Positions 10,470 through 64,000 of a stretch of DNA of 64,000 nt are shown piece after piece. The notes beneath the pieces are model-generated. The model searched no databases and had not been told where the DNA came from. It was given only the letters and a program-made list of their open reading frames with translations. The DNA is taken from assembly GCA_018398585.1 (NCBI GenBank), contig JAGTTD010000022.1:8905501-8969500 (forward strand). The letters run 5' to 3'. Position 1 is the first letter of the stretch, and the number at the start of each line of letters is the position of its first letter. The stretch is from Simmondsia chinensis. Taxonomy: Eukaryota > Streptophyta > Magnoliopsida > Caryophyllales > Simmondsiaceae. A program made the translations under genes and the position numbers.

Positions 10470-10790
10470 GCGTCTTAGTAGTGGCTTCTCTTACCCATGC
10501 GGTCGTCGCCCAGAGTCAGGAGTTTGATTCTCACTGAAGATATACTCGTGAAGTCATAATGAGGGCGTCTTAGTGGTGGCTTCTCCTACCCATACAGTCA
10601 TCGCCCAGGGGTAGGACTTTGATCCTCACTGAAAATATACTCACGTGGTCATAATGAGGGCATTCCAGTGGAGGCTTCTCTTGCCCATGCGGTCATCACA
10701 AAGGGGTCAGAAGTTTGATTCTTACTAGAGATATACTCATAGGTTGGGTTGACTGGGGCAGATTAATCCCTAATAAAAAAAAATTAAAAA
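10470..10790 (+). repeat. SINE-like trimeric repeat with A-rich tail
   Basis: Three ~95-bp units start at 10470, 10565 and 10660. Each contains gtggcttctc-tacccat, then a B-box-like agtttgattct/c about 45 bp on. Only the last unit is followed by a distinct tail (gttgggttgactggggcag) and an A-rich end. This fits a tRNA-derived SINE whose head was multiplied before or after insertion, but I see no clear TSD. Confidence 0.5.
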
Positions 10791-20717: not shown

Positions 20718-20932
20718 ATGGATAAACTTGCCAAGAGTAGGCCTGAATATGTTGAAGGAGTGGAGGAATTTGTTAAGGATGCAACAACCAACAACGATAA
20801 AATGCGTTGTCCGTGTAAGAAGAGTAAAAGACGCTTCCTTGTTCTTAAAAATGACATGGAAGATCATTTAGTTGTTGATGGTTTTGTTGACGGGTTTGAA
20901 GATTGGCTTTCAAGTATGGAGAACTTACCATA
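20718..20932 (+). pseudogene. TNP2 gene 5' exon with Transpos_assoc domain
   Basis: An ATG at 20718 opens a 71-codon frame with MDKLAKSRPEYVEGVEEFVK, then MRCPCKKSKRR and a HLVVDGFVDGFEDW ending. This follows the plant Transpos_assoc (PF13963-type) domain at the N-terminus of TNP2 transposases, including the R-C-P-C pair and the G-F-x-x-G-x-x-x-W end. The frame stops at 20930-20932 and the reading resumes in another frame (21,050 on), so a frameshift or stop already separates it from the rest of the gene. The preceding 20348-20717 is non-coding. Confidence 0.7.
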
Positions 20933-21049
20933 AATGCAAAGAAAGGGTTGCACAAGTAGTGGCAAGGATATACGAGATGCTTGTGATGAGGTTGAGGGGT
21001 TGTTACATGATAGATTTAGGGGGTAGCAGAAAGACAAGCGGGGGAACGA

Positions 21050-22154: not shown

Positions 22155-22157
22155 TAA

Positions 22158-22350
22158 CACTACAAGAAAACTAGTTTTTAACGACCAAAAATAATGACTG
22201 GAATTTTTTTTTGTCGTTAATGGTCTGTTTGTAGTGCCTAGTTGCGACGGGATTAAAACAACATCGTTAAAGGGTGGCACATGTTGGGCTTATAACGACG
22301 GGCACTAAATAACGTCGTTAATTCTACTCACAAACTGTCGTTAATAGGCT
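22158..22350 (+). repeat. Left TIR and subterminal repeats of inner CACTA
   Basis: A 13-bp TIR cactacaagaaaa, then repeated words ttaacgac, gtcgttaa, catcgttaa and aacgtcgttaat in both orientations. These differ completely from the gtaacactt words of the outer element, so the two belong to different CACTA families. AT-rich DNA to about 22680 and a 5'-UTR-like stretch with a splice-donor-like end near 22850 follow. Confidence 0.8.
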
Positions 22351-23092
22351 TAAGTAAGTGGTAAAATTTTGGTCAAAGGAGTTAAAATTCATTAATTTTT
22401 AAAAATTGGGCCCTTTTTTAAATTTGTCATTGTCTATTTTTTTTATTCTCTTAAATTTTTTAATTGATATTTCACCCATCCATACCATAATTCAAATTCG
22501 AGAATTAAATAATATCCCAACCAATACTTAATTCAATATTTTACTCTTTCGGTATATTTCTATTATACTTGATAATTTTTTATTTTAGATACTAAAATAT
22601 AATTTTTAATTAATTAAAAAATATAATAAATGTAATAATTTAACAAAAAAGAGATTATATTAATTTTTGGCAAAAAATTTTCCCACCCTTTCTTCCCTCC
22701 ACAACCCACGCGTGATTTCTTCCCCAATAAACCCTAGCTCTTCACAAATCCCCCCATTCAAACTCCACGAAAGGGAAGCAGCGAAGTAGGAAACGATTCT
22801 TCTTTAGTCCTTCGTGAACCAGTCGCACAACAGCGAAATCCAACCTTAGGTAATTAATTTTCTTTGATTGATTGCGTTTTCTGTTATTTCTTTGCGTTGT
22901 TTTTGTTCGGTAACCCTAGAATTGGTTATTACTACATTAAGGTGTTAATCTATAGATTTTATGCAATAATTTCTTAATTAGACTGTGTGAATTTCTTTTC
23001 TTCAAAGATTTGGGAATGGCGGCAACAGACGAAGGCTTCGATCGTAAACCTATATTCCATTTTTTATAGTATTTACCTATTGTACCAAGATT

Positions 23093-23601
23093 TCAAATGA
23101 TTTTATACTAGAATGACAAAGCTTTAAAGCGAATTTGTCTTGTTCTTTGGTAGTTCGTGTTGTATTCACTGAATTAACAAATTAGTTGATAGTTCATTTT
23201 TGTTATAAGCCGATGTCTATTGTTTGTTGGTAGTTAACAGCCTTAATTCTATTCTTCACTGTATTGACCCACTATACCCATAATTTGTATGATTTTTGCT
23301 AGATTGACAAAGTTCCAAAACGAATTTGCCCCTTTTATGTCTGTAATTCATGTTATCTTTGCTGAATTAACAAATTAGTTGGTAGTTCGTGCTTGTTATA
23401 AGCCCATGTTTGTTGTTCGTTGGTAATTAACAGCCCTAATTTAGTTCTTTGCTATATTGACACATTGTATCCAGATTTTGAATGTTTTTTTGCTAGATTG
23501 TCAAAGCTTCAAAGAGAATAAGTCCCTTTTATGTTGGTAGTTCATATTATATTTGCTAAATTAAGAAATTAGTTAGTAGTTCGTGTCTGTTATAAGCCAA
23601 T
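23093..23601 (+). repeat. 194-bp tandem repeat, about three copies, in inner CACTA 5' region
   Basis: The marker attagttgatagttc recurs at 23181, 23374 and 23568 (periods 193 and 194). The last unit is cut by the solo LTR at 23601 and resumes at 26083 (ccaatgtctgttgttcgttg), which is how the TSD could be recognised. Probably an expanded intron. Confidence 0.8.
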
Positions 23602-23712
23602 TGTTATGAATCAAGAATAATCTTGATTCATAACCTAGGGTTTGATAGAAATAAGAGAGTGTGAGATGAGAAAGAAGGGGAAAGAGATGAGAAAGTAGAG
23701 AGAAATATAGAG

Positions 23713-24246
23713 ATGAGAAGCGAATTCAGTCCAATTATCATTCAGCAAAAGGATCAATGTTTTATAGAGGTGCAAAAGCAACAAAGTGAACAAGTTCCTG
23801 AGGTGCCTACACTTGTTGCAGTAGAAGTTGATGAAGAGCAAAGCAAACAGGTTCCTGAGATTGATGTTGAAACTTCAGCAGTAGATCATGAAGAGCAGAA
23901 CATTCAAGTGCCACATTGCAGTGAACAATATCAACTATTGAATCAGATTGTTGTTGAGCAAAATCTGGAACAGCAATTTGGGCAAAACTTCATTGAAAGG
24001 GCTGGATTCAGTTGGATTTTGGATGCTACAGCAGGGAATCGAGACCATAACATCACAAAGAACATTGGGACTCTCGGTAAGCTAGTTTGGAACGAGTTTC
24101 TGGTGCCTATTACTACATTTCTAGCAGCTGAACAGATCAAACAACCACCTAGGCCAGCTAAGGAACTACCAGATGTTGCAATAGGATCATTTCAGCTTCG
24201 TAAGGGTGGAGGACCTAAGCAAACTACAGCGTGCTATGTGGGCTGA
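23713..24246 (+). CDS. Unrecognised glutamine-rich ORF in the nested Reina-like piece
   Basis: 177 codons from the first ATG, although that ATG lies in the disrupted LTR, so the true start (if any) is downstream. It shows three copies of a short motif: QQSEQVPE, EQSKQVPE and EQNIQVPH, then NQIVVEQNLEQQFGQNF, a moderately hydrophobic middle (GFSWILDATAGNRD, KLVWNEFLVPITTF) and a basic C-terminus RKGGGPKQTT. A second short frame (24206-24418) overlaps its end. It is not RT, RNase H or integrase. Its place just before the polypurine tract and LTR suggests an extra or captured ORF in a non-autonomous element. Function unknown. Confidence 0.3.
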   Translation: MRSEFSPIIIQQKDQCFIEVQKQQSEQVPEVPTLVAVEVDEEQSKQVPEIDVETSAVDHEEQNIQVPHCSEQYQLLNQIVVEQNLEQQFGQNFIERAGFSWILDATAGNRDHNITKNIGTLGKLVWNEFLVPITTFLAAEQIKQPPRPAKELPDVAIGSFQLRKGGGPKQTTACYVG

Positions 24247-25836
24247 TACAACAAGTTCAAGTGCTAGATGCAAGCTAAGCTCATACAAGTGGATTAAGAT
24301 AAAGAAATTGCATGCTATGTGGGCTGAACTAGGTCTTCCATCAGCTGTACAACCCACTGTGAGGCCTCTAGAAGTTCCATCCTACATCACACAACCTGAA
24401 TTTGTGCTGAACCACTAATTTTCAGTTGCAAAATTCACATTCCAGCATACATAATAAGAGGTCTTGCTGCAGAATCAGATCATCCTCATTTCTGCTGCTA
24501 TTTTAGTCAGATCATCCTCAATTCTGTTGCAATTTCAGTGTTTTTTAGCTTTAATAAGAGTGTTCTAGTCTCCTTTTCCTTGATAAGATTCTTGAGGACA
24601 AGAATCTCTAAAGGGGGAAGTATTATTATGATTTTAATGAGAAGTGTTTAGTAGTATTAGTCTTAGGCATTATGCTAGTTGTATATCTTGAATAAGTCAT
24701 GTGTTAGTCGCTGGTGTGCTGCTGCTAGTGTGTGGTTTGGTTTGGTTATTAGCTTGGTTAGGTGCATTGTATTAGTCTTCCTTTAGTTAGTATAAATAGG
24801 GGAGCTTCTCTTGTAATGTTCATAACTTGATGATAATGAATTGATTCTTCTCTCCCTTTGAGCTCAATGCTCCCTATCTCTTTCTAGATATTTTCTCTAG
24901 ATATTTCTATCTCAATCTTGATTCTTTTCTTATGAATTCTCTTTGAATCTCTATCAATCTCATCTCAATTCTTCTTAATCTCATCTAATTCTAAATTCTC
25001 TTAGTTTTCATCTTGATTTCACTTTCTAAGTGTAAATCCCTATCCAAACCCTAGGTTTATCACATGATTCATCCAAGAATCATAACAGTGGTATCAGAAC
25101 CAGATTTTTGCTTCCATTGGCGATTAAATACTTGTATTCGTTGGTTGATTCAAGATTAAGCTGAAAATTGATCAAAACAATTGGCAAAGGACTGCAGGTG
25201 CTGCTGTCAGGTTGTTTTTGTACCAGAATTCAATTCGGTTGCAATTGATCCTGTTCATTGAGTGAATCCTTGATTTACCTAGTGTGAATTGATCAATTGT
25301 GCTGCATTGTCAAGCAAGATTTCAGTTAGGTTCTGTTGCTATTGCCAAGATTTCAGTTCGAATTTTGCGATTCTTAAACTTGATCTTGCAATATCAGAAT
25401 TTGTTGATCAAATGTGGTGATTGAGCTGCTGCCAATTCGATTCCAAGTAGAGCAAACAGATTAAGTGAAGTACATTGAAGTCATCAAGTGTTGATCATGT
25501 TGAATGCTTTAGATTGAGAATTTAGGCTATGGATCCTGATTCTTGACAGCACAGTCTGTTATTTTTTGCTTAGCATTGGAGATACTTCAATCATCTACAC
25601 AAGTTTTAGCTTGATCCTAGCTTAGTGGCAGTTACTTTGATCAACTACACCAAAATTCAGTGTTGATCGGTTACCTCGATCGAGTTAAAGGTGATCAAGC
25701 TGTTGCACTAGCTATTACACCAAAATTCAGTGTTGGTCGATAACTTCGATCGTAGGCTTAAATTTCATTGCCACAACCTTTGGTGACAAAACACCGTTTT
25801 GCTTAACCTCTTGCTGCAACATACTCTTCTGTCGAA
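23745..25836 (+). mobile_element. Reina-like retroelement fragment arranged internal-LTR-internal
   Basis: In plus orientation the order is the unrecognised ORF, the 3' end of an internal region (attcttgaggacaagaatct then aaagggggaag at 24590-24620, matching the chromodomain end and polypurine tract of the element at 38784-44251), an LTR (about 24621-25087), a primer-binding-site-like tggtatcagaacc (25089-25101) and then 5' internal DNA without ORFs to 25836. One LTR flanked by internal DNA on both sides implies recombination between tandem copies or a partial insertion. Confidence 0.55.
24621..25087 (+). repeat. LTR of the nested Reina-like piece
   Basis: It follows aaagggggaag and begins tattattatgattttaatga (a mutated TGTTATGA start is likely). 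A promoter-like agtataaataggggagc lies at about 24789, a CT-rich R/U5 region follows, and it ends ccaagaatcataaca at 25087, directly before the primer-binding site. Confidence 0.7.
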
Positions 25837-26368
25837 CCAATTATCATTCAACATACCTTCTTACAATGCAAGGCCTCCTATTTATACTAACTGATTGAGC
25901 CTAAAAATATCTAAGTAAACAATGAATCTAGACCAACCTTAACTACTACTAACTAACTAAACTGACTTAACCGACATATATGAATTTTCCCTAATTTTCC
26001 CACCAAAACCATTAACCGACATTAACCACCGATTAGCTAACTAATTTCCAAATTGACCCTCCAACATACTAAGATCATGACACCAATGTCTGTTGTTCGT
26101 TGATGATTAACTGCCCTAATTTGGTTGCTTTTTAACGTAAATGACTAATTTGAACGCATATGTGTGACATTTCTTATTTTCTCAATTTTGTTATTATTGT
26201 CTTGAGTTTCTATCACATCGGCTGACTTGTTTTCTTAAATTCTTTTTACTAGTGAAGCAGTTTGATAATAGTGTAAAATAAAAGGCGATGAAATCAGACG
26301 TATGCCAACTTGCTGGGTTGTTGTTATTGTTGTTGTTGTACTGACTTGTCTTTTTATGTGACAGGACG

Positions 26369-28231
26369 ATGTTTCAAAGTAAAGTTATTAATAAGCCTTC
26401 TTCTTCAAAAGCTAATAAACAATTCCTATCGCCGGGAGTGCTATCCAAAGGTATTCAGGGGTCAAAGGCTTATATTAACACGAGAAATCTACCTATTACA
26501 CTCAATTCAGTTGGAGTTGTTCATATGCCTTCCCCTTCTACAATTAACAACCATGATACACAGGTTAGAGAAGCAAATATGATGTCTTCACCAATTAGAT
26601 CACGTGAAGCTTCATTTGAAGCTCCTGATCTAACATCTGACCATATGAACTCCACAAATGCTTTGCAAATTGAAATGGAGTTGGAGAATCATGAAATTGA
26701 AAATGAAATTGATGTTGATAAACAAGGTAATTGTTTTTCTTACTCTTTTTTAAAAATGGTAAGGCTTTGATTTCTTGTTAGCATGTAATCACTTTTTTGT
26801 AATTGGTAGATTCTACGGAAAATAATGATGGAAAGAAGAGAGCAAGACGTGGAAAGAGCAAATGCAAAAAGGTGGCAACTCTAAAACCTGGAAATAAGTT
26901 GCCTATTGAAATTTTCCAAAATCGCTGTGTTGGACAAAATGCAAATGAATTTTCTCGACACTTGGGCAAAATCGTACGTGATAGAAATGTTGTTTCAAGA
27001 AGGAAGCACTCATGGGATGAAATTGATGCGAGAGAGAATGAACACATGTTTGCTGTAGTCCTGGTAACTTAACTGTATAATGTAGTTTATATTTTCATTT
27101 GTAAACAATTATACGATGATTGTTAGATATTTAATTTACGATGACAAAATTTCATTAGCATGACAAGAAATTGAGTTTACTTATTTGAATTAGGACAAAT
27201 TTCATGACGAGAATGTTGACTTGAAGGAGTATCGTAAAGAGATCTTAGATCATATGCGGTACTTGTGGAAAAATTGGAGAGGGGACTTGTATCGGTTTGA
27301 GATTTTGAAAAGGCCGAAAACAAAAAATCGGCCTTCACCGCCTCACAACTTTACTATGGAACAAGCTTTGAAAAAAGCCGTAATAGATCCGCCTCCAGAA
27401 GGGTGGGATAAGGAGGATTGGGTATGGATTGTAAAAAATTATTATGCATCTGAGGAGTTCCAGGTATAAATTCTCCCTCCTTTTTTTCCATTTTATTATT
27501 TGTACTTTTATTCATGGACATATTAACTTTTTAATATTTGAAACATAGGCAAGGAGCGCTAGAAACTCTAAAAATAGGGCTGGCCTTTCGAAAGAACTAC
27601 TTCATCACACTGGTAGCAAAGCTCATAGGCAGATTTTCAAAGATATGGTGTGTGACTAAATATTTCAATATTTTATTTTTTTAATTTTTTTCCTCTATTG
27701 CAGAATCTAACTATTATTTGATTGTAAAGACTCAGCAGAATGGGGAATTTCCTAATCTTGGGGAGATGTTTCTGGCTACACGTTCAAAGGGTGATAAGCT
27801 GGCGACACATGAGCTTTGTCAATAATATGTATGTAGAATTTAAAGAATTAATTACTTGTTGTCATGTATACTTTACTTCATTCTTAGTTCACACTACTTT
27901 GTTGGAAAAAATTGTTGATGTCATTGAAGAGAATCCGACCTTATCTAACATTGAAGTTGCTGAGAAAGCCTTCAACAAATGTCAAGCTCATGGTCATGAG
28001 TTTGGTTATGGGGGAGGAGTAAGGCCTAGTGATTTGAGAGGACCATCTTCTACCAAGGCCGAGCTTCTTGAAAAACTTCGTCAATCTGAGAAGGAAAAGC
28101 GAGCACTGCTTAAAGAGAATAAGGAATTTGCTGATTTGGTAGCTAGAGTAAAGGCACTAGAGGATGGAGGTCGTAACAACGGGTCAAGTACTCCCTCCCG
28201 ATCTATTGAGATGGACGACTACATTAATTAA
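26369..28231 (+). pseudogene. Transposase_24 (TNPA-like) gene of inner CACTA, six exons
   Basis: Exons by GT-AG junctions: 26369-26726, 26810-27063, 27194-27463, 27549-27647, 27730-~27828 and 27898-28231. The first four join in frame (phases 1,0,0,0). Signature blocks are FQNRCVGQNANEFSRHLGK, YLWKNWRGDLYRFEI, EDWVWIVKNYYASEEFQ, ARSARNSKNRAGLS plus HHTGSKAHRQIF, NGEFPNLGEMFLATRSKGD, ENPTLSNIEVAEKAF and a C-terminal coiled coil (LLEKLRQSEKEKRALLKENK). Such proteins bind subterminal repeats and assist TNP2. In exon 5 an in-frame TAA follows HELCQ and no donor gives the phase exon 6 needs, so the gene is probably broken there. A 3'-splice-like tgtgacag precedes exon 1. Confidence 0.8.
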
Positions 28232-30290
28232 ATATTAATAGGTATGTGGTAATCTTTTTCTTTCCCTTCTCTCTCTTATTTTTCCCTTAGTTTTCGCTTA
28301 TGTAAGTTGATATATTCATAAGAATATATTATTGAGTTATTTGGAATTGTTCTGGATTTGGACTTTGTGATTGAGTTCTATGTGGAGTTTGAGAATGTTG
28401 TTGATTTATGTGTTAGATTGTGTACTATGGAGTTTGAGATATGGGAATATTTTTGTATTCATTAATCTACAGATATGATGTGAGTTTCTACTATTTCAAG
28501 CTCTAGGCTTAAGGCCCTGTGATGGGTGTTTTTATGCTGCTAAACTCTGGTGTGTTAGGCTTTAGGGGCCGTCAGTGATGTATAGAGCGAGTTTTTGATT
28601 TGGCATTTTGAAGTAAGTGTGGGTAGTAGTTTCACATTGTGAAGTTGTTGTTATTGTGTGGCTGATTATGCTGTTTAGAAATTGGATTATGTGCCTTTCT
28701 AATTTTCTATGTGATTGTTGTGGTTAACATGTGCTTAATGCTTGAGTGTGATTGTGAACTTGTTGAAATGGAGCTTTGAACCTAGAATTGGCAACTCTTA
28801 GGTTAGGCATGTCTAATTGCACAATCTTGGACCCGATGTGTGGATAGGGCATTGCATGTTTTGAGTTTAACGATGGATTGGATGTTGTTTGTGAGAATTG
28901 GTGTTTCTTGCATATGTTTGAGTGACCTAAGTGAAATAGGTGATTATTGTAAAGGGAGGCTTAGAGAACTTGTGAGTTCTTATTTAAAATCTGTGTGATT
29001 TAGTGTCTTAGTCTCCATGTCGGTGTCTCATGTATTTCCCAAGGCTATGTTGGAAGCAAGTTGAGCATATATTGGTACTTGTTGCTTGAAGTGATGATAA
29101 ACATGTTGTTTATAGACTGTTTCAAGTTGAATTTGTTGCTTTATGTTGGTTTTGAGCTGTATTTTGTTGCTCATACTGATTTTACTGCAGTTGGGACTGT
29201 ATGCTGCTGAATTTTGGGCAATTTTGCTGTCATTTTATTATGTTTTGCTGAATTTTAGCTATGAGTTGGGAAAACATGATATGTTTGAGTCATATGTGGA
29301 CTTGTGTTGTCTTAGGAGACTTGTATATCCTTAGGATTATTGTTTCATGCCTTTTTTTTTTAGTTTTGGGAAAAGGGTAAGGCATAGGTCTTGTGTGAAC
29401 CTTTATTGACCATAGGTTTGGTTTATTATGTTGTATGCTCATATTGGGTTGTTTTGGATATTGTTCATGATGGAGTTTTGTGATGCAATGTATGAATTGA
29501 TTTGGCTAACTTGAACTCTGGGTGAATTGCATGTTTAGCTTGGATTTTATATTGATTGCCATGAATTATTTGGAATTGTTGATGAGTTTGGACTATGTGA
29601 TTGAATCCTAGCGGGAGTTTTAGAATGTTTTGAATTTGTGACACTTTAATTGAGTTCTATAATGTGGAGATTGGATTTGCGATTGCATATTAAAAAGCAT
29701 ACGAATTTCCTTTTTGGTCAATTTTATGCTGATTAGTTTAATATAGTTTTTATCTGTTTTATTTTTTTATTGCTTGGTCTGTTATGTGTCTGTAAAATTG
29801 CTCATATGACAAGAATTTTCTAACATGAGTGTTGTATTTATTTTTTTCAGGTGTTGGAAGACTGCACTGGAAATTCTTGTTTTTGTTGGAACTTTTATTT
29901 ACGAACTTTTGTCAGATTTATAGTTTTTGCTAAGTTGTTAAGTGACAAATTTAACAATGTACGCTTTTAGTGTTTTTTGTATGTGAATTGGCTTTTATAA
30001 GTATTTGAATATTTAAGTTTCAATGACATCTTGACTTTTTATTAGAATTCGTTGTTACATTGAATAATATGTAAGAGTTATTTCTGTATGATTATACTGT
30101 ACTATTTTATAGGTGTTATACTGAAATTAAATATTGTCATATTACATTTATGTAAAGGTGCTATGAACAACCTGATAATTGTCCTTATATGAATTTGCAG
30201 GTGTTGCAAACAATCAAAAAATTATTTTTATATTACATAAATGTATAGGTATTTATGAATGTATATATTGCACTATATGAATGTATAAGA
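28232..30290 (+). other. 3' non-coding region of inner CACTA
   Basis: No coding signal. The sequence is G/T-rich and looks intronic or 3' UTR, with a probable 3'-UTR intron from gtatgtgg (28241) to tttttcag (about 29851). The frame at 29143-29334 is low-complexity. The subterminal repeats of the right end start near 30290. Confidence 0.5.
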
Positions 30291-30840
30291 TTTTTAACGT
30301 CGATAAATTTTTCTGTTAGAATTTTCTTTTGATGGGGGAAGCATTTTTAATGATGTATTTTGATGTCATTAATAGATGGAAAGACGTTTTAATGAAGATT
30401 TATTATTGTTATTTTTTAACGACGGTCTATATTGTCGTTGCTATTTCCAATTAGTAGCGCAAAAAATTTTAACAATGGTTTTTGTCATCGTTAAAACTTT
30501 TTCCTAAATGACGGTCAGTATTTGTAACAACAACAATTATTGTTGTTATTAATCAACTCTTTAACGACGGTGCCACCTGACATTAAAGACTTTACTTTTA
30601 ACGACAACATGTGCTGTAGTTATTGATTTCACTTTTAACGACGGACATAATATACCGTCGTAGATACTTTTTAACAACGGCTCATTTTAGCGGTCGTTGA
30701 TCCCACATGGTATTAACATCGGAAGCAATAAAGACGACAAACGACGCAAAGTTTCCGCCGTCGTTAATAGTATTAACGACGGTAAAGTAGACTTTTAACG
30801 ACGATAATCACTGTTATTAATGACCCTTTTTCTTGTAGTG
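30291..30840 (+). repeat. Right subterminal repeats and TIR of inner CACTA
   Basis: About fifteen copies of taacgacgg, cgtcgtta or close variants in both orientations between 30297 and 30825, ending with ttttcttgtagtg. Much richer in motifs than the left end. Confidence 0.85.
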
Positions 30841-30898
30841 TAATGGAACTGTCTGATTTTAAAAATAAGTTGGGAAAAACCGACAAAGCAGAGAAGAT

Positions 30899-31919
30899 GT
30901 GATATTCCATGGAGGAAAAGGTCCATATTCTTTGAGCTTCCCTACTGGGAGCACAATCTATGTCGCCACAATCTTGTTGTGATGCACATAGAAAAGAATA
31001 TATGTGACAATGTGATTGGGACATTGTTGGACATTCCTGGTAAGACAAAGGATCTTCCAAAAGCTCGCCTTGACTTGTTGGATTTGGGAATAAAAAAGCA
31101 TCTCCAACCTATTTTTTCTGAGGATGATCATAATGTTACACTATTACCTGCAAACTATTCAATGGGAAATGAAGCTAAAGAAATTATTTGCAAAGTCCTA
31201 AAAGAAGCAAAGTTGCCCTATAGTTGTGCCTCAAATATCGGACAATGTGTGCAAATGAAGGAGAGGAAGGTAATTAGATATAAAAGTCATGATGCTCATG
31301 TTATACTGCATTATTTGTTGCAAGTTGCTTTTAGGAAAGCTATGCCTAAACCCGTTGCGATGACTTTGATTCGATTGGGTGCCTTTATGAGATGTATATG
31401 TAGCAAAGTTATCAAGTTGGAGGAGCTAGACATTCTAGATCGAGAAATATAAGAAATACTTTGTCAATCAGAGACGCATTTCTTGCCTACTTTCTTTGAC
31501 ATAATGGTTCACTTTCCAATCCACTTGATAGATGAAATTAGACTTGGTGGACCGGTACAATACATATGGATGTTCTTTGTTGAAAGGTATATAGGAAAAC
31601 TGAAGTCATATGTTCGTAACTGGGCTCATCCAGAGGGGTCTACAGCCAAGGGTTATTGAGCGGAAGAGTGCTTAATATTTTGCTCTAGATACTTGCATCA
31701 TGGGGTGAAAACTAGATTAAATAGGTGTTCATGGAACTTTGGAGGCAATGATGATCTTATTCAAGGAGAAACCCCACTTTTTCCTAAAGTGGGTCATCCT
31801 ATAGGAAGCAAGAGAAAGCAAAGAGGAAAAGGAATCAAGTTGAGTTGTAAGACCATGGAGCTTGCTCACCGATATGCTGTATTCAACTCAGATTGTGCAA
31901 TAGTTCAAAAATATATTGA
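30899..31919 (+). pseudogene. TNP2-type transposase, middle part and DUF4218 region
   Basis: Resumes the gene interrupted at 22154. From about 30932: FFELPYWEHNLCRHNLVVMH, IEKNICDNVIGTLLDIPGKT (the H-x-x-K-N-x-x-D-N signature), then VILHYLLQVAFRKAMP, FPIHLIDEIRLGGPV, MFFVERYIGKLKSYVRN and AEECLIFCSRYLHHGVKTRL, which is the DUF4218 domain. One continuous frame (30979 frame) carries stops at 31450 and about 31658. A phase-compatible intron (31920-32017) joins it to the next exon. Confidence 0.9.
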
Positions 31920-32017
31920 GTAAAACACTTTGATACCTCTCTCTCTCTCACTACATAGATATATTTATCCTTTTTTGTTAGTTTGTTTAATTCTTTTGTT
32001 CACTTTATTTTGTGCAG

Positions 32018-32765
32018 TGCCCATGAACATTTGATTAATAGCCAACGCGGGAAAACGGCATGGATGAAAGCACAAGAAAATAGTGATGGCTTTGTTAGGT
32101 GGTTTCAGAATGAGATTATCAATAAAGAAGTACCTGATTATATCTTTTGGTTAGCCAAGAGCCCTAATCGGAAGGCTAAAAGATATAGCGGCTACGTTGT
32201 AAATGGATATAGGTTTAATATAAGACAACGTGACGCCAGGTGCAAGACTCAAAATAGTGGAGTCACTTTAATAGCAACCACACCTAGTTTTGCAAGCTCT
32301 AGGGATAAAAATCCTATTATTGGGGAAGTCGCTTACTATGGATACATAACAAACATCATTGAACTGGATTTTTGGTCAAAATTTAGTGTGGTCTTGTTTA
32401 GATGTGAATGGTACCAAGGGGAGAATGACGATTATGGTCTTACTCGTGTCAATTTCAACAAAAAGGTTTCTCAAGATGATCCCTTTGTTTTAGCATTCCA
32501 AGCTCATCAAGTCCTTTATGTGCAAGATCCTGTGGAAGATCAATGTTATTATGTCATGAAAAGAGTCCCTAGAGATTTTTTCAACCTTGAAGAAGATGTC
32601 AGTATGAACGTAGAAGATTCATACTGGAGGGAGCCTATTGATTTTGGATTGGATTTCTCCTCAACCAATGATGATGAGAACTTCACCGAATTAAATGAAC
32701 ATGTCAATGCCACAACTTTGGACTTCGACAACATCTTAAATGCCAATGCAGATATATATATATGA
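32018..32765 (+). pseudogene. TNP2-type transposase, 3' exon with DUF4216
   Basis: Begins after ttgtgcag at 32017. Reads AHEHLINSQRGKTAWMKAQE, FVRWFQNEIINKEVPDY, YSGYVVNGYRFNIRQRDARC, GEVAYYGYITNIIELDFWSK and FRCEWYQGENDDYGLTRVNF, then ALAFQAHQ-type text VLAFQAHQVLYVQDP, the DUF4216 domain found at the TNP2 C-terminus. The exon is open to its natural stop at 32763. The last ~75 residues are acidic. Confidence 0.88.
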
Positions 32766-32994
32766 GCCAGATTATGAGTTTGATTATGATGATACATTAT
32801 GGGATTGGATACATCCAACCGAATGAGTTGTAATTGTTTACTAGTTTATGTTCTTAATGACTTATACTGATTAGACATTGTGTTTCACTTTTTCTTGTAA
32901 TGACTCGCATTTGATATTTTGGTAGAATTTGTAATGGGAGGTGCTTTTGCATTTGTTGTTTGTTTCTATTGTTTGATTTTTTTACAGCATTTTA

Positions 32995-37193: not shown

Positions 37194-38260
37194 ATTTTTA
37201 AATGTATATAACTTCTCATTCGTAAGGAGATATGAGCCAAATCACATATAAAAATGAAGATTTTGAAGAGTTCCGTATAGCTATGATGATATTTAGAGTT
37301 TTTGATGAAAGAAAACATAAAAAGGAGGAGAGAAGTTGAAGTGCGCGTTTTACCCATGTGGTGGGTATACAACTTGAACCTTTAACTTAAAGCGAGCATA
37401 ACTTTCAATCTGTGAAGGGTCATTGATAGAATCACCTATCAAAATGAAGCTATTGAAGAGTGCTAGGCACTTATGATGATTTTCTAAGTTTTTGAATAAA
37501 GAAAATATGAGAAAGAGGCGAAAAGATGAAGTGGGTGAATTCTGCGTGTAGTAGTTAAATAACTTACCTTGTAACTTAAAACAAGGATGACTTTTAATCC
37601 GTGAAAAGTTATAGATTGAATTATATATCAAAACGAAATCTTGAAGAGTCCTATGTAACTGTAATGATTTTTAAGGCTTTAGTTCAAAAAGAATATGAAA
37701 AAGAATGTGAAAAGATGAACCAGGCAAATTCCGATTGTAAAAGCAACATACCCAGTGCCCTAAGGGCTCCCGCCTAAGCAAGGTTTGGGGGGAGGGGCCA
37801 GATGTACGCAGCCTTCCCTCTTTACGGTATTACCCCTGAAGAGGGGCTATTTTCGAGTGCCCTCAAGCTGAGGGTGAGTACTTCCCAGGAGGTCACCCAT
37901 CCTAGCAGTGCTCTCATCCAAGCGTGCTTAACTTCGGAGTTCTAATGGGATCCAGTGATGGCGTGTTGGTACCCTCTTTGGTAGTGGTTACATAATTTAC
38001 CTTGTAACTTAAAACAAGGATAACTTTTAATCCGTGAAGAGCTACGGATCGAATACATATCAAAATGAAGCTTTAAAAGAGTTCTATATAAATATAATGA
38101 TTTTAAAGCTTTTGATTAGGGAAAATATGAAACGGAGGTGAAAAGATAAACTATGCGAATTCCAATTATAGTAGTTACATAATTTACGTTGTAACTTAAA
38201 ATACGAATAACTTTTAATCTGTGAAGAGTTATAAATTTTTATATCAAGGAACCTCATTGT
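37194..38260 (+). repeat. ~190-bp tandem repeat, about five copies, interrupted by a 5S-headed SINE
   Basis: Each unit has gtaacttaaaac-aggataacttttaat, ccgtgaagag and atcaaaatgaag. The last word occurs at about 37243, 37437, 37627 and 38058, giving a period near 190 bp once the ~240-bp SINE insertion is removed. Units differ by 15-25% by eye. Confidence 0.85.
37751..37977 (-). repeat. 5S rRNA-headed SINE, copy 1
   Basis: Plus-strand 37877-37975 is the reverse complement of plant 5S rRNA from about position 10 to 105. The box C region ggatgggtgacctcctggga is perfectly preserved. Toward 37751 it continues into the LINE-like 3' block (agggaaggctgcgtacatct, then a C-rich site and gcgggagccctta-gggcactggg). 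It inserted into the 190-bp tandem repeat; flanks gtaaaagcaacata / gtagtggttacata may be a decayed TSD. Confidence 0.85.
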
Positions 38261-39077: not shown

Positions 39078-39982
39078 CGTCCCCTTGAGAACAATCTTGG
39101 CCTCAAGAATGGAAGTGGGAAATTTGTTGTGAATCAGGCTCAGATCCTCCCGAGTAGCTTGTTGATCATCCAAGTTAACCCACTGGATGAGTGTTTTAGT
39201 CTGGCTTGGAGAACCAAGCAATCAGGAGGCAATTCAAGCTTGTAAGCAACATCGCCCACCAATTGTATGATCTTGAAAGGTCTAAAGGACTGAGCAGAAA
39301 GCTTCACATTCATTCGAACTGCAACTGATGACTGCTTGTATGGCTGCAATCTCAAGTAAACATAGCCACCAACATTAAAAGATTTATCAATTCCATGCCT
39401 ATCAGCAAAGTATTTCATTCGAGATTGAGCAAGATGCAAATGATCTTTGAGTTGCAGCATCAATTGCTTGCATTGCTCAAGTAAATCTGTAACCACCAGC
39501 ACAGCTGGTATGACTCCTTTCGAGCCAATTGGTGATGATGGTTCATAGCCATATAATGCTTTAAAGGGAGTAGTCTTGAGGGCTATGTGAGCATGAGTAT
39601 TATACCAATACGAAGCCAACGAAAGCCAGCTATGCCAATGCTTAGGATTAGTGAAAGTCGTGCTCCTCAAGTATTGTTCTACACTCTGGTTAACCCGTTC
39701 TATTTGGCCATCCATATGGTACGAAGAACTCAAGGAAAGAGTTGTACTCAGCAACCCAAACAAGTCTATCCAAAAATGGCTGATAAAAAGCTTATCCTGT
39801 TCAGAAACAATAGACTGAGGCAGACCATGGAGTCTATAGATGTGATCTAGGAACAACCTTGCCAACCTTGCTATTGTAATGGGATGAGAAAGCCCAACAA
39901 AATGCCCAAATTTAGTGAACCGATCAACTAACAAAATGACTTCCTTCCCTTCAGACTTAAGAAGGCCCTCTATAAAATCCAT
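39078..39982 (-). pseudogene. Reina-like integrase with out-of-frame chromodomain end
   Basis: A 280-codon frame (39982-39140): MDFIEGLLKSEGKEVILLVD (first catalytic Asp), VSEQDKLFISHFW (family consensus has SDRD, so the second catalytic Asp reads Glu), SSYHMDGQIERVNQSVEQYL (third Glu retained but P-Q-T deleted before DGQ), then the GKY-like SFRPFKIIQLVGDVAYKLEL. In the next frame, TKTLIQWVNLDDQQATRED and LSLIHNKFPTSILEAKIVLK (about 39165-39078) give the C-terminal part of a chromodomain. Integrase inserts cDNA, and chromodomains steer integration to chromatin marks. Inactive copy. Confidence 0.88.
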
Positions 39983-40366
39983 ACTAATATGTTGCCAAGG
40001 TCTTTGTGGTATAGCTAAAGTTCGGAGAAGCCCTTGATATGATGTTCACCCTTCGTTTGCTGACAAATTTCATAGCTCTAAACACAATGCACCACCTCAT
40101 TCTTCATTCCAACCCAGTAAAAATCTTGCTTTAATTGTTGATAAGTCCCCTCTATACCCAAGCGACCACCTCAAGCAGAAGAATGAAAAGCTGAGGTTAC
40201 CTACTTTATGAGTTCAGAGCTATATCCCACACAAAGTTGCCTTTTATTCTTATCAATCCAATACACGCTATCACTCTAGAGGCTGTATTGGCTGTTGGAT
40301 GAATACTTACTGCAGCAAGACAGTCTTAAGCAAAGACCTCATTCTCATAGGTTTACAAAACCTCCT

Positions 40367-41803
40367 TCATCTAGTGAGGCAGTGTGACTGATAAGGCATT
40401 ACAAGCAGCTTGATCTTCAACTCCCATGCTCCTAGAAAGTGATCTGCAACAATATTTTTCTTACCACTTCTATCAACAATAGAGTAATCAATTCCCAACA
40501 TCTTTAAGAGTCTCTTCCGTTGAACTCTAGTGGTTACCTTGTGTTCCAACAAATACTTAAGACTTTGGTGATCAGTCTTCATAACGAAATGATGTCCTTC
40601 CAAATGATGCCTCCACTTTTGGACTACAAGAAGAATGGCAAGATACTCCTTCTCATAGATTGACAAACACAAATTCCGTGAATTCAAGGCCTGACTTAAC
40701 TATGCAATAGGCCTTCCTGCCTGAGAGAGCACTGCCCCTGCTCCAATGCTGCTTGGATCAGTCTCCAACTCAAAAGGAAGCTTGAAATCTGGCATTGCTA
40801 ACACCAGAGCACCACACAAAGCAGATTTAGGTTGATGGAAAGATTCTTGAGCTGTCTCATTCCAATTAAAAGCATCTTTCTTGAGAAGATCAGTGAGAGG
40901 TTTAGCCATCAAGAGATAGCCTGATATGACCTTACGATCATAACTAGTTAAACCAAGGAAACTCCTCAATCTCTTGATGTATTGGGTACAGGCCAGTCTT
41001 TCATTGCCTAGATTTTGTTAGGATTAGTGGCTACCCCATCCCTTGAGATAATGTGGCCTAAATAATCCACACTTGGAGCGGCAAAAGTGCATTTGGACAG
41101 TTTAGAAAAAAGCTGGTGTTTCCTCATCAACTCAAGCACCAACTGAAAGTGCTTCAAATGCTTGTCAATTGATGCACTATAAATCAATATATCATCAAAG
41201 AAAACCGGTATGAACTTCCTTACATAAGCCTTGAAAATGTCATTCATTAATGCTTGAAAAGTTGACGGAGCATTGGACAATCCAAAAGGTATCACCACAA
41301 ACTCATAGTGTCCATGATGAGTGCGAAAAGCAATCTTATGGATTTCTTCTTCCCTGACTCGAACTTGGTAATACCCTTGCCTCAAATCCAGCATGGAGAA
41401 GTAGATCATCAATGATTGGAATTGGAAATTTGTCTCTGATTGTAAGGGAATTAAGGTGTCTATAGTCAATACATATTCGAGAGCTTCCATCCTTCCTCTT
41501 CACCAAGATCACTGGTGATGCGAAAGGGCTATGACTTTGTCTAATGAAATGTGTCTTCAAAAGGTCCTCCACCTGTTTCTCAATTTCATCCTTTTGAGCA
41601 TGCGCATATCTATAAGGTCTGAGGTTCACAGGTTGACCCTCCACCTTCAAGGGTAACGGCATGATCCAAAATCCTCTTAGGAGGTCAAGCAATAGGAACG
41701 GCGAACACATCATTGTACTCGTGGAGCAATTTATGCAGGTATGGATTAGCATGCTTGCAATCCTCCTCAGTTGCAATAGCCTTGATTGAACACAAATGTT
41801 CAA
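40367..41803 (-). pseudogene. Reina-like reverse transcriptase and RNase H
   Basis: Minus-strand pieces 41803-41336, 41490-41008, 40969-40700 and 40687-40367. RT blocks: [74 protein letters not shown] and the active site FFDDILIYS (about 41179-41205). RNase H: FELETDPSSIGAGAVLSQ (catalytic Asp in context ETDPSS), YEKEYLAILLVVQKWRHHLE and KTDHQSLKYLLE. Frame changes near 41400 and 41000 and an in-frame stop near 40695 break the polyprotein. 40000-40366 holds the degenerate integrase zinc-binding region. Confidence 0.9.
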
Positions 41804-42149
41804 TCCATTGGTAGTTCCCTTTTTGAATAACCCCTTCCAACCTTTTTTTTGTCATTAAGTGCAGCTGTCCTTGCTCTCTTATACCTTGAAGCATGATCCT
41901 TTGTCAATTCCTATCAAAGGATACTGTGAGCTCCGAGAAATGAAACACAATCGAACTTATGGTCTTCATCCAATCCACTCCTAAGACCGTATCACACCCT
42001 CCCAATCTTAGAACTTGAAAATCATAAGTAAAGCTATGCTTCTGCATCAATCAAGAGAACTGCCTGCACTTTCTTTGAGTTAAAATGGAGTTTGCATCGG
42101 ATACTGTCATTGTCAAATTTGTGTCTTAATCTTTTCATGTCCCACAGAT

Positions 42150-47100: not shown

Positions 47101-48110
47101 TGGTTGCCGATTCACTTTGTTTCGTAAAAGAAGGGCCAAAGAGTGGTGAAGCACAAGAAAACAGAACAAGCTGAGCAGGACCTAAAGGATTCTTGATGGA
47201 TATATTACCAAGCAGTAGTGCAAAGAGGTTAGTCGAGCACTCTGGTAACTAAAAGAGGGGGAATTTGGTGAAGGGAGGAAAAATACTAAAGATGTTAATA
47301 AACTTCTTATTTCAAAGTGAGCATGGGAGTTTAGAAAGAAGATTGCGCTGAAATTCAATAGAGATGGATCATTTTTGGTTGTGCGTATTGTAATAATAGA
47401 CTAGGGTCATGCTTGGCATGAATTCCTATCATCCTCAACCCCAGCTTTGGCATAGTTGTTTCATTCCATCTTTTGATCTTGGTCCATTCTGATTTCTCTC
47501 CATGAGTGACTTAGTCACTTTAGCACTAGTTTTGCTCACTCGTAACTCTCTTGTAATCCTTTTTTTTTTTTTCAATGCAGAATATTGTCCTTATTTTGTA
47601 TCTCTTTGATTCCCATTTTAATATGGGCTCGCTCAGGCCGCATTGTTCAACTAGCATGTCTTGTACTGCAACTTTATCACCAATTACTCAAAGGGGGAGG
47701 GGGAGGAAATAGTGGGGTTGGGAAAAAATTCATTAATGTTCTGGAAAAATATGTATGACTTGTCTAGATGAGATGATCTCTGCCACTCCCACAGATCGGG
47801 TCGAATTTGATTCTGGCAAAAAAATCGACTTGTGACCCATCCAGCTACATAGACCGGGATTGATCTGCTACCCTGGCAAGACGGGTTAGGTTCCATCGAC
47901 CCAATTGACCACCTGTAGCCCCATGCAATGCACGAGAACTAACTACATTATAATATATTAGATTTGACCCATTTGAAGTCAGAATTGAGTTGTCCTTAAG
48001 GTCTCTCTGCAAGCCTCTAGAAGTACAGTGGTAGTAAATATTTATGATGAATTAATGCGATGGATTTTGTTCGTTAGATGAATAAATTAATTTTACTCAA
48101 CATAATGCAT
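47101..48110 (+). other. No gene seen
   Basis: Mixed composition. Contains an aaagggggagggggaggaaa purine tract at about 47690 and a poly-T run at 47570. The minus-strand frame 47684-47896 has no recognisable features. This may be further decayed LINE or LTR sequence. Confidence 0.4.
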
Positions 48111-48357
48111 GAGGGGTCATTTACCAGGGACTAATGCAACCGGATCCTATTAGAGCTGCGAAGTTAAGTGTGCTAGGGTGAGTGTAGTACCATGATTGGT
48201 GGCATCTTGGGAAGTCCTTGTATTGCCAACCCTATAAGGTTGGGGGTCCTCAGAAACAGCCTCTCGGCAGGGTTACACCTTGAAGGGGTAAGGCAGCGTA
48301 CATCCCCCCCCTCTTAGACCTCGCTTATGCGGGAGCCCTTAAGGAATTGGGTCATAA
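48111..48357 (+). repeat. 5S rRNA-headed SINE, copy 2
   Basis: 48112-48230 follows plant 5S rRNA: accagggactaatgcaaccg, gatcctattagagctgcgaa and gttaagtgtgcta (box A), then a more diverged box C (attggtggcatcttggga). The LINE-like block follows: ggttgggggtcctcagaaac, ggtaaggcagcgtacatc, a 9-C run and gcgggagcccttaaggaatt. A 13-bp direct repeat agatgaataaatt (48076-48088 and 48357-48369) brackets it; similarity between the flanks continues for ~20 more bases, consistent with a decayed TSD. Confidence 0.88.
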
Positions 48358-48488
48358 GATGAATAAATTTATTTACTAAATAATAATTATAAGATGAATT
48401 TATACACGTGGGAATTAAAAAAAAAAAAAAAAAGTAATTGCGTGTGAAACAGGGCCATAATCCACACCAGGCTCTATCAGCCAATCAC

Positions 48489-59820: not shown

Positions 59821-60637
59821 TTTTCGTTTAAGAAGGGTGCTTACGTATCATTTCCAGTAACACGGTAAAGTATTCACATTTTATATTAGCTGTATGATAC
59901 ACGTTTCATAACATGTATCATATTTTTTCAGACTAAAAAGCAAATGATCCACTGAAAATAATAATACTTACATCCAAATTAAATATTTATATTCTATATA
60001 TATTTTGTTAATTTGTCACTTCAACTTTCAATTATTGACCTATCCCTCATTTTTTTTGCTATGTATTCTTCCTCTCACTAGCACTATTACCGTCAAGCTA
60101 AGTTAACTGAAAGTTATATGCCTCCCCACTTTGTTAGTGTTTTAATTAGAAAGAGTTGTGACAAACGTAAATATAATGATACATAATTTTTCTTATAAGG
60201 TAACAAACTTTTGACCAAATTTTTTATATATAGAGTCAAATATAACAGCTGAACACATTAATTTCGTTAATTCATATACCATATTTTGCAAACTATGTAA
60301 TTGAAAGAATTAATAATAATTAGAAGGGTAGGTGGGCAGGGCATGCCCAATGTTTGTTTAGAACCGAGGTGAGTCCACTAGTTATGGTGTTGGTATATAC
60401 GCGGAGATCTACAATTTGCATGGTTTGGATGTCCTTGTTCTTGCCATGGCACTGCTTTTCATCCTCCTACGACTTACCAATTTTTTTTTTTTGGGGGTCA
60501 AAACCTAAGATTTTCAATTGGACCTTTCATTTTATATAATATATTTTTGTGACTATTATTTTATGTGATATATATGGACTATGGTATCTCAAATATTCAA
60601 TTTAAGTAATTCCTTTGAGCACATAATATTCAATTTA
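59821..60637 (+). other. No gene seen
   Basis: AT-rich. Contains a 14-bp direct repeat atattcaatttaag at 60593-60606 and 60626-60639 just before the SINE. The frame 60354-60539 is not recognised. Confidence 0.4.
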
Positions 60638-60891
60638 AGGGTTCATTTATCAGGCACTAAGGCACCGGATCCCATTAGAACCCCGAAGTTAAGTGTGCTT
60701 GGGCGAGGGTAGTACCAAGATGGGTGACCTCATGGGAAGTCCTCGTGTTGCCAATCCTATAAGGTTGGGGGTCCTCGAAAACAGCTTATCGGCAGGGTTA
60801 CACCCTGAAGAGGTAAGGCTGCCTTCATCCACCCCTCCCAGACCCTGCTAATGCAAGAATCCTTGAGATATTGGATCTGTTGTTGTTGCTG
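60638..60891 (+). repeat. 5S rRNA-headed SINE, copy 3 (best preserved)
   Basis: 60638-60755 follows plant 5S rRNA closely: atcaggcactaaggcaccgg, atcccattagaa-cccgaag, box A aagttaagtgtgcttgggc (60686-60704) and box C agatgggtgacctcatggga (about 60718-60737), then gtcctcgtgttgcc. The LINE-like block follows (ggttgggggtcctcgaaaac, gggttacaccctgaagaggt, aggctgcc, catccacccctcccagaccc) and a tgttgttgttgctg tail. Internal promoter boxes look nearly intact. No TSD recognised. Confidence 0.9.
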
Positions 60892-61406: not shown

Positions 61407-61807
61407 TGTTATGATTCCTTAGATTTTAGTTGTCATTTGGTTGTATTACGAGTATTGTCTAGATTGTTGTTCTTGTCTTGTATTCAAATATTAGTTGGTA
61501 GGCCCTTGGGGCCAAAAGAAGTCGGTTAGTTGGTCTTGGGGAGTCAAAGTTGGTGGCAATTAGTTTGGCGCCAGATTTAGGTGGTTGAGTCGGTTAAGTT
61601 GAGGTCTTGATTCAGTGTACTAGATCAAGTATAAATAGGCTCAAATCATGTAAATTCATCATTCAATCAATAACAATCAGATTTTCCTTTGAAAATTCTC
61701 TCTCTATTTCTCATCTCCTTTTCTATTTCTTATCCCCTTCACTTCTTCTCTCATCTCAATCCCTTCTTCTACAAGGTTAACTTTCAATCTTGAATTGGAA
61801 GCCAACA
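61407..61807 (+). repeat. 5' LTR of the Reina-like element
   Basis: 401 bp, TGTTATGATTCCTTAG to ggaagccaaca. A TATA-like aagtataaataggctc at 61628-61643, then ttcatcattcaatcaataac near the probable transcript start, and a CT-rich U5. Confidence 0.88.
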
Positions 61808-61881
61808 ATTGGTATCAGAGCTGGTTCAAACAATCAATTACTTGTTTGGAGCTGGCAAAACAAATGAAAAACAATCAGACT

Positions 61882-64000
61882 ATGGCTAAGGGTGTGAGGA
61901 CACGATCGGGAGCCGGTGGAGCCAATGTAGCTGCGGTTGTGAGTCCAGATTGCTCTTACGCTACTGTTGCTGGTGAAGAGGCTACAATCGGTCCTCAGTA
62001 CATTACTAATGCTCATCTTCGAGACATCAATGATCGCCTTAGCAATGTAGAAAAGCTTGATCAAAAGATTGATCAGAAGTTTGAACAGATGCTTTTATGC
62101 ATGAGACAGATGTTGTTTGAAAATGACTCCAAAAAAGAGGAACGTCTGCAGCAAATTGAGGCTAAGCTTGTGCATTTGCAGGATCAGGTTAATAAGCAAG
62201 GAGAATCCTCAGTTAACGCGATCCTTAAGCCAACTAGTCAGATTCTTCCACCTGTGAAGTGGTTCAGCAGCAAGTAAACATTGACAGAACTAAAAGCTTG
62301 GTTAGGAACCGAGGTAAATCTCCGATGATGCAACCTGAGGCAGGACCTTCAGTACAGGTTAGATCAGTTGAGGATCGACTTCCACAGGCTGAAATTGCTG
62401 TAGAAAATCAGGATAGAGCCACAGAACAAGCTCATTCCAGATTGAATGGCTTGAATTCATATCAGAATTCAAGGCTGCCAAATTCTGTTTTGCATCACAG
62501 GATTGCATATGATGATTTCGAGCATCATGACAGACCTTCTGGTCAGCAATTTCAGCGAAGATCAGTGAGCAATGACATGTCTTCTGGAGGCAGGAGTAGT
62601 TCTCACAGGCAGCCAAGAGTGGAAATTGAACCTTTTGATGGTAAACAACCGGAGTTTTGGTTGAGAAGGTGTGATCGGTATTTTCAATATTATAACATAA
62701 ATGAAGCTGAAAAGGTCAAGCTAGCTGCAATACATTTACATGGCGATCATGAGGCATGGTATTATAGTTTGTTGAAGAGCAAACCTAACCTTTCTTGGGG
62801 CCAATTCGTAGAAGAAATGTGTGAATGATATGGAGAGGAAGAGATAAGTGATGTAGTGGACAGTTTGAGTAAGGTGTGCCAAACCTCTACCATGAGGGAG
62901 TATATGATAAGATTTGAGAATCTACGAGCTAACTTGTTGTCAATAATATCCATTTCTCCGGAGGATTCAGAGGCATATTATGTCTCTTGTTTCGTTAGTG
63001 GATTGAAGCCTAGGATCAAGAATATGGTGAAAGCCATAGGTCCTAAGACATTGTCTAATGCTTGCAACAAGGCTAAGTTGATTGAAGCTACTTTAGCCAA
63101 TTCAAGTGACAAGAATAAGTTCAAAGACAGTAACTACAGACCGCAGCACAAGGATGTTTCTGGTTCCAGATTTAAGCTTGTTGTTGATAAAAGCTCAGTG
63201 AGGCTATGTTTTCATTGTAATCAGCCTTATTAGCCTGGTCATAGGTGTAAATCTTAGGCCTTAATGTCTGCAAGAGGGTCCCGTTCTAGTGTTGTTTCTG
63301 ACAGTGAAGATTCAAACGCTGAGGATGACAGTTATGATCCTTCTTCACAAGATGAATTGTTGGAGGATGAAGTTGAGATTTCCATGAAGGCTGGTAAAAC
63401 TTCTATCATTATTCTTATTGATAGTGGGAGCACGCATAGTTTGGTTGATCCCAAATTGATTAAGAGAGTGAGGCATGAAGTGACAAAAACTCATCCATTG
63501 GCGGTTATGGTGGTTGACGGCAACTCCATAACTACTCAAAATAAGTGCCTAGCATTTAAATGGTCTATGCAAGACCATCATTTCACCTTTGATTTTAGAG
63601 GCCTTCCCTTGGGAGGTTGTGATATGGTGCTAGGTGTAGATTGGATGAGAACTTTCAATCTGGTGGTGTTTGATTTTGATAAAATGATGGTAGCATTTGA
63701 GGTCCGTGGCACTGAATACTCATTGCAAGGCATTTCTGAGGAAGCACAACTTCGGTTGATTGATGGCAAACGATTACAAGGAGGAATCAAGAAGAAAACA
63801 ATTCAATGGCTTGGGCACTTGTTCGTTATTTCCTCTGTTGAACTACAGCAGGATATTAAGCCGGAGGTTCATGCCTTGGTTGAAGAGTTTGAAGATGTTT
63901 TTGAGCAACCAAAGAGCCTTCCTCCTCAAAGGAGTGTGGACCATGCCATTCCACTTCGAGCAAATGCCGATCCAGTTAAGATCAGGCTGTACCGATATGC
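61882..64000 (+). pseudogene. gag-pol: Reina-like gag-protease-RT polyprotein with few lesions
   Basis: The likely start is ATG 61882 (MAKGVRTRSGAGG), followed by a coiled coil (VEKLDQKIDQKFEQML). One frameshift near 62255 moves reading to the frame open from 62259. That frame runs to the window end with only three stops: TGA 62826 (in MCE-stop-YGEEE, where the family has Arg), TAG about 63231 and TAG about 63255 around the knuckle CFHCNQPY-x-PGHRC. Gag core PRVEIEPFDGKQPEFWLRRC and YMIRFENLRANLL; protease IILIDSGSTHSLVDPKL (about 63415-63465); RT start DHAIPLRANADPVKIRLYRY at the window edge. Confidence 0.88.

Follow-up and report, generated by a model that had tools for sequence, protein, structure and literature searches.

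The stretch of Simmondsia chinensis DNA analysed here, a window of 64,000 nucleotides (contig JAGTTD010000022.1, positions 8,905,501 to 8,969,500), contains three short elements, c1, c2 and c3, in which a head derived from 5S rRNA is joined to a body derived from the 3' end of an RTE-type LINE. Their positions are given in Table 1, together with two LINE remnants carrying matching tails and the tandem array into which c2 has been inserted. All three heads match the Rfam 5S model RF00001 above its gathering score of 38, and the elements can be aligned with one another across both head and body.

Table 1. Elements and associated features in the window (positions counted from its first base).
Feature	Position	Strand	Basis or remark
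RTE-type LINE, 5'-truncated, (TTG)n end	9223-10365	-	Related to the putative partner; tail similar to the SINE body
Perfect 20-bp TSD of this LINE	9203-9222; other copy 10366-10385	-	Identical 20-mers
Second RTE-type LINE remnant, (TTG)n end	14858-15771	+	Tail matches the SINE body
189-bp tandem repeat array, split by c2	37240-38241	+	Same repeat unit on both c2 flanks
c2 (subfamily B), whole copy	about 37741-37981	-	
c2 body, RTE-derived, ending in TATGTTGCTT	37741-37870	-	
c2 head, 5S-derived	37872-37981	-	Rfam 57.7 bits (full-model match 37863-37980, -); B consensus (20 genome copies)
c3 probable long decayed TSD, 5' copy	48074-48112	+	3' copy at about 48354-48392
c3 (subfamily A), whole copy	about 48113-48353	+	
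c3 head, 5S-derived	48113-48231	+	Rfam 41.7 bits (full-model match 48112-48231, +); junction as in c1
c3 body, RTE-derived, without TTG tail	48237-48353	+	91% identity to A consensus positions 119-239
c1 (subfamily A), whole copy	60639-60888	+	
c1 head, 5S rRNA-derived	60639-60757	+	Rfam RF00001 73.6 bits, model 1-120 (full-model match 60637-60756, +)
c1 body, RTE LINE 3'-end-derived, (TTG)3 tail	60762-60888	+	Alignment with the RTE 3' ends of the window

The head of c1 begins at the 5S +1 position and includes box A, IE and the box C region, and the LINE-derived part follows from about 60758-60762 onward. An initial annotation had taken the first ~115 bases for plant 5S rRNA, which the match of 73.6 bits over the full model length bears out. 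It had also assigned one fusion point and one tail to all three copies. The junction and body are indeed common to c1 and c3, but c2 represents a second subfamily with another junction and another end, and among the three copies (TTG)n has been kept by c1 only, being missing in c3. In c2, the first 25 nt of the head are diverged, the 5S 3' end is about 11 nt shorter and the terminal TATGTTGCTT carries no TTG repeats. The pattern of the 5S/body junction has one exact match in the window, c1, and none in 100 shuffles, on which ground chance was rejected as an explanation. When compared to the consensus of its subfamily, c1 has diverged by 6% in the head and 13% in the body, and no TSD is detectable around it, as 80% of random flank pairs score equally well; the proof of mobility therefore comes from its sister copies across the genome. 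The probable TSD of c3 is a gapped match containing an exact 13-mer, a result equalled by 1 in 3000 random flank pairs. For c2, the neighbouring 189-bp units constitute related empty sites, and the exact TSD is blurred.

Other repeats have also been observed in the window. About three 95-bp tandem units (GCGTCTTAGTGGTGGCTTCTC...) occupy 10470-10739, and the interval 20900-32800 (+) holds several open reading frames whose products we take to resemble CACTA-type transposon proteins. Fragments judged by eye to be similar to Ty3/gypsy and Ty1/copia proteins lie at 39140-41851 (-), about 200-4500 (+) and 61693-63233 (+), with a gag-like stretch at the right end of the window.

Searches of the genome to which the window belongs (831 Mb, 35 contigs) revealed a dispersed family. 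With c1 as query, 7,134 first-look candidates were obtained, of which the best 40, including c1 itself, were scored; all show at least 87% identity, they are distributed over 21 contigs, and 39 of them reach within a few bases of both query ends, the remaining one starting at position 16. The other 39 places were fetched as subfamily A copies. The c2 search gave 8,114 candidates, with the 40 scored ones comprising c2 and 39 others at 85-88% identity, likewise on 21 contigs, and 20 subfamily B copies were fetched for junction and TSD analysis. As best-scoring copies, those examined are biased to full length and youth, and it is in this sample that A copies differ from their consensus by 5-6% on average. 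Every fetched copy carries the junction of its own subfamily without an indel (39/39 A, 20/20 B). TSDs of 8-24 bp were detected in 33 of the 39 A copies, above the 95% level of mismatched flank pairs (n=185), and TSDs of 10-20 bp in 18 of the 20 B copies (mismatched-flank null, n=192), leaving six A and two B copies with no TSD above the null. Seven pairs of A flanks are partly similar (38-129 bp, 70-89%, five loci); similarity on both sides was seen for no two copies, which indicates separate insertions near other repeats. The consensus sequences measure 256 nt for A and 236 nt for B and describe a short, non-coding, multi-copy family. The proposal of the initial annotation, a mobile SINE family and not a chance 5S fragment, is thus upheld by dispersed copies, fixed junctions and TSDs in 33/39 A and 18/20 B copies; the duplications it had suggested looking for, of 8-20 bp, have been found at 8-24 bp in A and 10-20 bp in B, and the varying junctions that it had named as grounds for abandoning a SINE were not encountered, with L072 as the one intermediate.

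There are two subfamilies with one fixed junction each and no scatter, A comprising c1 and c3 and B comprising c2. When compared to A, the B elements have different first 25 nt, a 5S part ending about 11 nt earlier and a terminal TGTTGCTT followed by T-rich sequence, with exactly TGTTGCTT present in 13 of the 20 copies. The bodies of the two are 89% alike. The copy at L072 (C6:33354500-33355400) combines a B-type start with a full-length 5S 3' end (GTGTTGCATCCC), and in view of this intermediate, we favour a reading of B as a shortened relative. A more far-reaching reading may also be considered, in which RTE tails captured a 5S promoter on separate occasions, giving rise to A and to B, which differ in their tails and at both 5S ends, and to the first plant 5S-derived SINE lineage. 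The capture of the 5S promoter by non-LTR elements would then be recurrent in plants, as in animals, and plants would hold the kind of 5S SINE proposed as ancestor of the 5S domain of Cassandra. This extended reading is tentative, and we consider it rather doubtful.

The copy number has been estimated from 60 kb taken at random places, from some 67 kb surrounding RTE loci and from some 21 kb surrounding A copies. Beyond the window and the targeted copies, four further 5S-headed copies were found (L086, L052, L057 and L006). The density is roughly 1 per 37 kb, which would correspond to the order of 20,000 copies with several-fold uncertainty, to which the repeat-centred stretches may add bias; the genome carries many copies, probably thousands. 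The window is denser, with 3 copies in 64 kb. A strict junction pattern matches only 19 of our 124 loci, so that it would miss most copies; a scan of viral contigs and of genome contigs from bacteria and archaea did not find it, in keeping with a plant element.

The relationship of the heads to the 5S genes of the host is close, with 103 of 120 columns identical between the c1 head and the host gene and 107 of 120 between the A consensus head and the gene of the host arrays. Both the A head and the host gene have the variant ATTAGAACT; most plant 5S genes read ATCAGAACT. The initial annotation had described box A and box C as almost unchanged. At the positions that we take these boxes to occupy, box A and IE of the A consensus are unchanged relative to the host gene, and box C shows two changes. 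A 5S match above the gathering threshold was obtained in all 20 scanned sources, namely 19 of the 39 A loci (about 750 bp each, with a single match in each) and the B copy L052. The distance from the start of the element to the end of CACCGG is 30 nt in A and about 30-31 nt in B, compared to 31 nt in the host gene, and both subfamilies begin about where 5S transcription would start. In A, the likeness to 5S extends over the whole length, from +1 up to the 3' end (GTGTTGC followed by a diverged CCAACCC), with the first 16 nt diverged, and conservation of the SINE heads is highest in their middle. The promoter boxes themselves are not better conserved than their surroundings, having drifted by 5.2% in 38 copies as opposed to 5.0% for the remaining head. 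Given this equal rate of drift and the decay of the copies, many of them are probably inactive. When folded as RNA, the A consensus is not unusually stable (z -0.58; 58 of 200 shuffles equally stable).

The 5S genes of the host occur in arrays. An RF00001 search of the genome gave 51,838 first-look candidates, of which 47 were scored, 46 of these lying on contig C8 and one on C29. The two C8 arrays, at C8:4685657-4702430 (units of about 435 bp) and C8:6396691-6414603 (units of about 420-430 bp), are on opposite strands and 1.7 Mb apart, and the unit read in the first of them has a second stretch similar to 5S box C within its spacer (GACGGGTGACCTCGTGGGAAGGGCTC).

The body had been described in the initial annotation simply as non-5S, which is accurate as far as it goes; its identity with an RTE LINE 3' end was missed, as was the second subfamily. 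Both LINEs in the window are presumably of the RTE type, an assignment which we make, besides the reverse transcriptase match of the first, by their (TTG)n ends and their likeness to plant RTE protein. The LINE at 9223-10365 holds an open reading frame of 177 amino acids, and in one frame of three it gave an RVT_1 match (E 2.5e-06, 27.8 bits) just below the Pfam cut-off of 29.6. Including its duplications, the interval 9203-10385 (-) is a clean example of a 5'-truncated RTE LINE insertion. The remnant at 14858-15771 shares 78% identity with the first open reading frame over 170 amino acids and gave no Pfam match in three frames. All six alignments between the bodies of the three copies and the two LINE ends exceed the scores of shuffled sequences by 9.5 to 24 standard deviations. 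A genome search with the 177-aa frame yielded 17,278 first-look candidates, of which 150 were scored and the 20 best, the one in the window included, were cut out; a tail similar to the SINE body occurs in 20/20 of these best loci, 180-256 nt past the match to the reading frame and at 69-85% identity. Identity to the A body was determined for seven LINE tails and amounts to 85-89% in five of them and to 78% and 84% in the other two. The closest, at 89%, is L081, a truncated copy without a coding region, while the closest tail with remnants of the RTE reading frame is that of L070 (87% over 124 columns).

Such tails are not confined to the SINE. In 160 kb scanned, consisting of the window and of loci centred on SINE or RTE sequences, 51 body places were found, 14 of them with a 5S head. 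Headless tails are thus common in the scanned sequence, and the tail alone does not mark a SINE. Some are 5'-truncated LINE insertions with direct repeats of their own. Ten headless or LINE tails were checked for such repeats, with no null control, and seven look convincing (L081, L076, L082, L068, L069, L055 and L070), among them exact repeats of 21 bp at L082, 13 bp at L076 and L068 and 14 bp at L055, and a 20-bp repeat with two mismatches at L069. As for the remaining three, the repeat of L078 is a T run, that of L005 is weaker and that of L061 chance-like. The part resembling the LINE starts at the AGGTTGGGGG motif or up to 5 nt ahead of it (CTATCAGG in L005 and TATCAGG in L008, compared to CTATAAGG in A), which suggests that the short linker following the 5S part is LINE-derived too. 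In blastn comparisons, the 5S head was unmatched in front of the RTE tails themselves.

The insertion sites carry a recognisable signature. The first base of the TSD is T in 25 of 33 A copies and 12 of 18 B copies. Upstream of the A duplications (n=33), the frequency of T peaks at -9 to -11 (58-67%), the next highest value being 55% at -3, and a TTT run is present at -14 to -7 in 15/33 copies; the corresponding counts for the four windows lying farther upstream are 9, 8, 6 and 9 of 33. With a permutation mean of 8.1 and 11 of 5000 permutations as high, the A copies show a T-run signal of moderate strength. This pattern resembles the T-stretch/T insertion signature that has been reported for plant RTE LINEs (PMC13295347).

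Taken together, the element, which is repeated and dispersed through the genome and was inserted with TSDs, opens at 5S +1 with a 5S head, and its remainder corresponds to the final ~130 nt of an RTE-type LINE. Very probably, c1 to c3 belong to a plant SINE derived from 5S rRNA, with two subfamilies, for which the promoter content and the 3' end suggest transcription by Pol III and mobilisation by RTE. The 5S internal control region (box A, IE, box C) would drive Pol III transcription from the first base of the element. Neither consensus has an internal TTTT, so that termination of the transcript would be expected in the T-rich DNA of the flanks. The RNA of the SINE ends like RTE RNA, and the RTE protein, the putative helper, would therefore recognise the LINE-like 3' end and take it as template. 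Target-primed reverse transcription would then proceed from a nick located some 10 nt downstream from a T stretch, with priming on the (TTG)n end in A and on the TGTTGCTTTn end in B.

The presence of a nearly full 5S gene in the head, in a genome with real 5S arrays, raises the question of whether these are, instead of a mobile family, decayed units of 5S genes or scattered 5S pseudogenes with adjoining spacer. One observation concerns the body, which the initial annotation had said should be found mostly in ordinary 5S spacers if it were wrong: in the host array locus L095 (3,119 bp), the body has only chance 8-base matches, and the spacer unit was rejected for this reason. Considering also the distribution over 21 contigs with TSDs and a fixed junction, and the derivation of the body from the RTE LINE 3' end, an origin as 5S pseudogenes has next to no probability. 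The same may be said of a Cassandra-type TRIM, which bears 5S in its LTR, or of its solo LTR. The TSD of Cassandra is 5 bp long. Cassandra is the known plant retroelement with 5S sequence (PMC10853983; PMC10886601), and a TSD of 5 bp has also been described for the plant TRIM Helenus (PMC10886601). The present element, rather than enclosing its 5S part in an LTR, opens with it at +1; it terminates in a LINE tail with (TTG)n, is flanked by duplications of 8-24 bp and not 5 bp, and shows one 5S match per scanned A locus (19 of 39), which sets it apart from Cassandra as described. These differences led to the rejection of the identification.

Two other alternatives retain the SINE and change the origin of one of its parts. 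The head may have been acquired from a Cassandra LTR and not directly from a 5S gene, a view consistent with the strongly conserved 5S region of ~70 bp reported in Cassandra (PMC10853983) and with the conservation of the SINE heads in their middle. In A, however, the likeness to 5S runs from +1 to the 3' end, even though the first 16 nt have diverged, and the variant of the host 5S gene is shared, which makes this route unlikely. Mobilisation by another LINE, for instance L1, following template switching, would turn the RTE-like tail into an incidental feature. The L1 clade has been described as the commonest among LINEs of flowering plants (PMC3747384), but the SINE has no poly(A) tail, ending instead in (TTG)n or TGTTGCTT, its insertions follow the T-stretch/T pattern of plant RTE elements (PMC13295347) and it is the RTE 3' end that takes part in the conserved junction; we consider mobilisation by such a LINE very unlikely. 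The 5S-derived SINE mobilised by RTE remains the preferred reading.

To our knowledge, no 5S-headed SINE with an RTE tail is known in plants. In the open-licence literature, a body of work outside which the main plant SINE papers, Repbase and SINEBase fall, no 5S-derived plant SINE was found described. SINEs with 5S heads are known in fish and mammals (PMC3747384), insects (PMC10886601) and a fungus (PMC5063351), and annotation tools for SINEs allow 5S heads in principle (PMC8825457). In the classification of a 2022 review, plant SINEs appear under tRNA-derived elements only (PMC9033089), and where a 2024 study of Cassandra cites promoter capture by SINEs, animals serve as the example (PMC10853983). 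The novelty of a plant 5S SINE is accordingly probable, although not proven. Such a SINE widens the range of Pol III promoters used by plant SINEs, and its copies may be mis-annotated as 5S genes.

We take the angiosperm SINEs with the T-stretch/T signature to be the Au-like ones, grouped here with the Angio-domain superfamily and its 37-bp domain. For angiosperm SINEs related to RTE LINEs, this signature has been reported (PMC13295347), and Au-like plant SINEs end in T tracts (PMC3747384), as subfamily B does with its TGTTGCTTTn. The tobacco element TS, whose partner is RTE-1_STu, is similar to subfamily A in that its 3' end of ~100 nt matches an RTE LINE and terminates in (TTG)n (PMC3747384). 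A 3' end shared with RTE and carrying a TTG or T tail is thus common to these SINEs and to the present element. The difference lies in the head, with TS filed among the tRNA-derived plant SINEs and Au, with its tRNA-derived head, under tRNA (PMC9033089), whereas the head described here is accounted for by 5S matches. With respect to its head, the element resembles the SINE3 class (zebrafish SINE3, AmnSINE1 and lepidopteran HaSE3 among others), which has a Pol III promoter head derived from 5S rRNA. In a wide sense it belongs there, having a 5S head that covers the internal promoter, dispersed copies, TSDs and a 3' end shared with a LINE. The vertebrate members have CR1 tails and the hosts named are animals (PMC3747384; PMC10886601), in contrast to the RTE-type tail with (TTG)n found in this plant, which separates it from DeuSINEs and SINE3 proper.

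The closest parallel in composition is Ped-1, a SINE of the springhare with a 5S-derived head and the 3' end of the LINE BovB, a member of the RTE clade (PMC3747384), so that the same pairing of 5S and RTE occurs in a rodent and in a plant. Ped-1 has a mammalian host and BovB as partner, whereas the plant element has the 5S of its own host and a plant RTE tail with (TTG)n, for which reason an origin independent of Ped-1 is the simplest reading. The Cassandra TRIM is likewise a plant non-autonomous retroelement using a 5S promoter; it differs in being an LTR retrotransposon, when compared to an element with 5S at its very start, longer TSDs and a LINE tail. It has been speculated that the 5S domain of Cassandra originated from a SINE3 insertion (PMC10886601), and the plant 5S SINE constitutes a concrete candidate for comparison with that domain.
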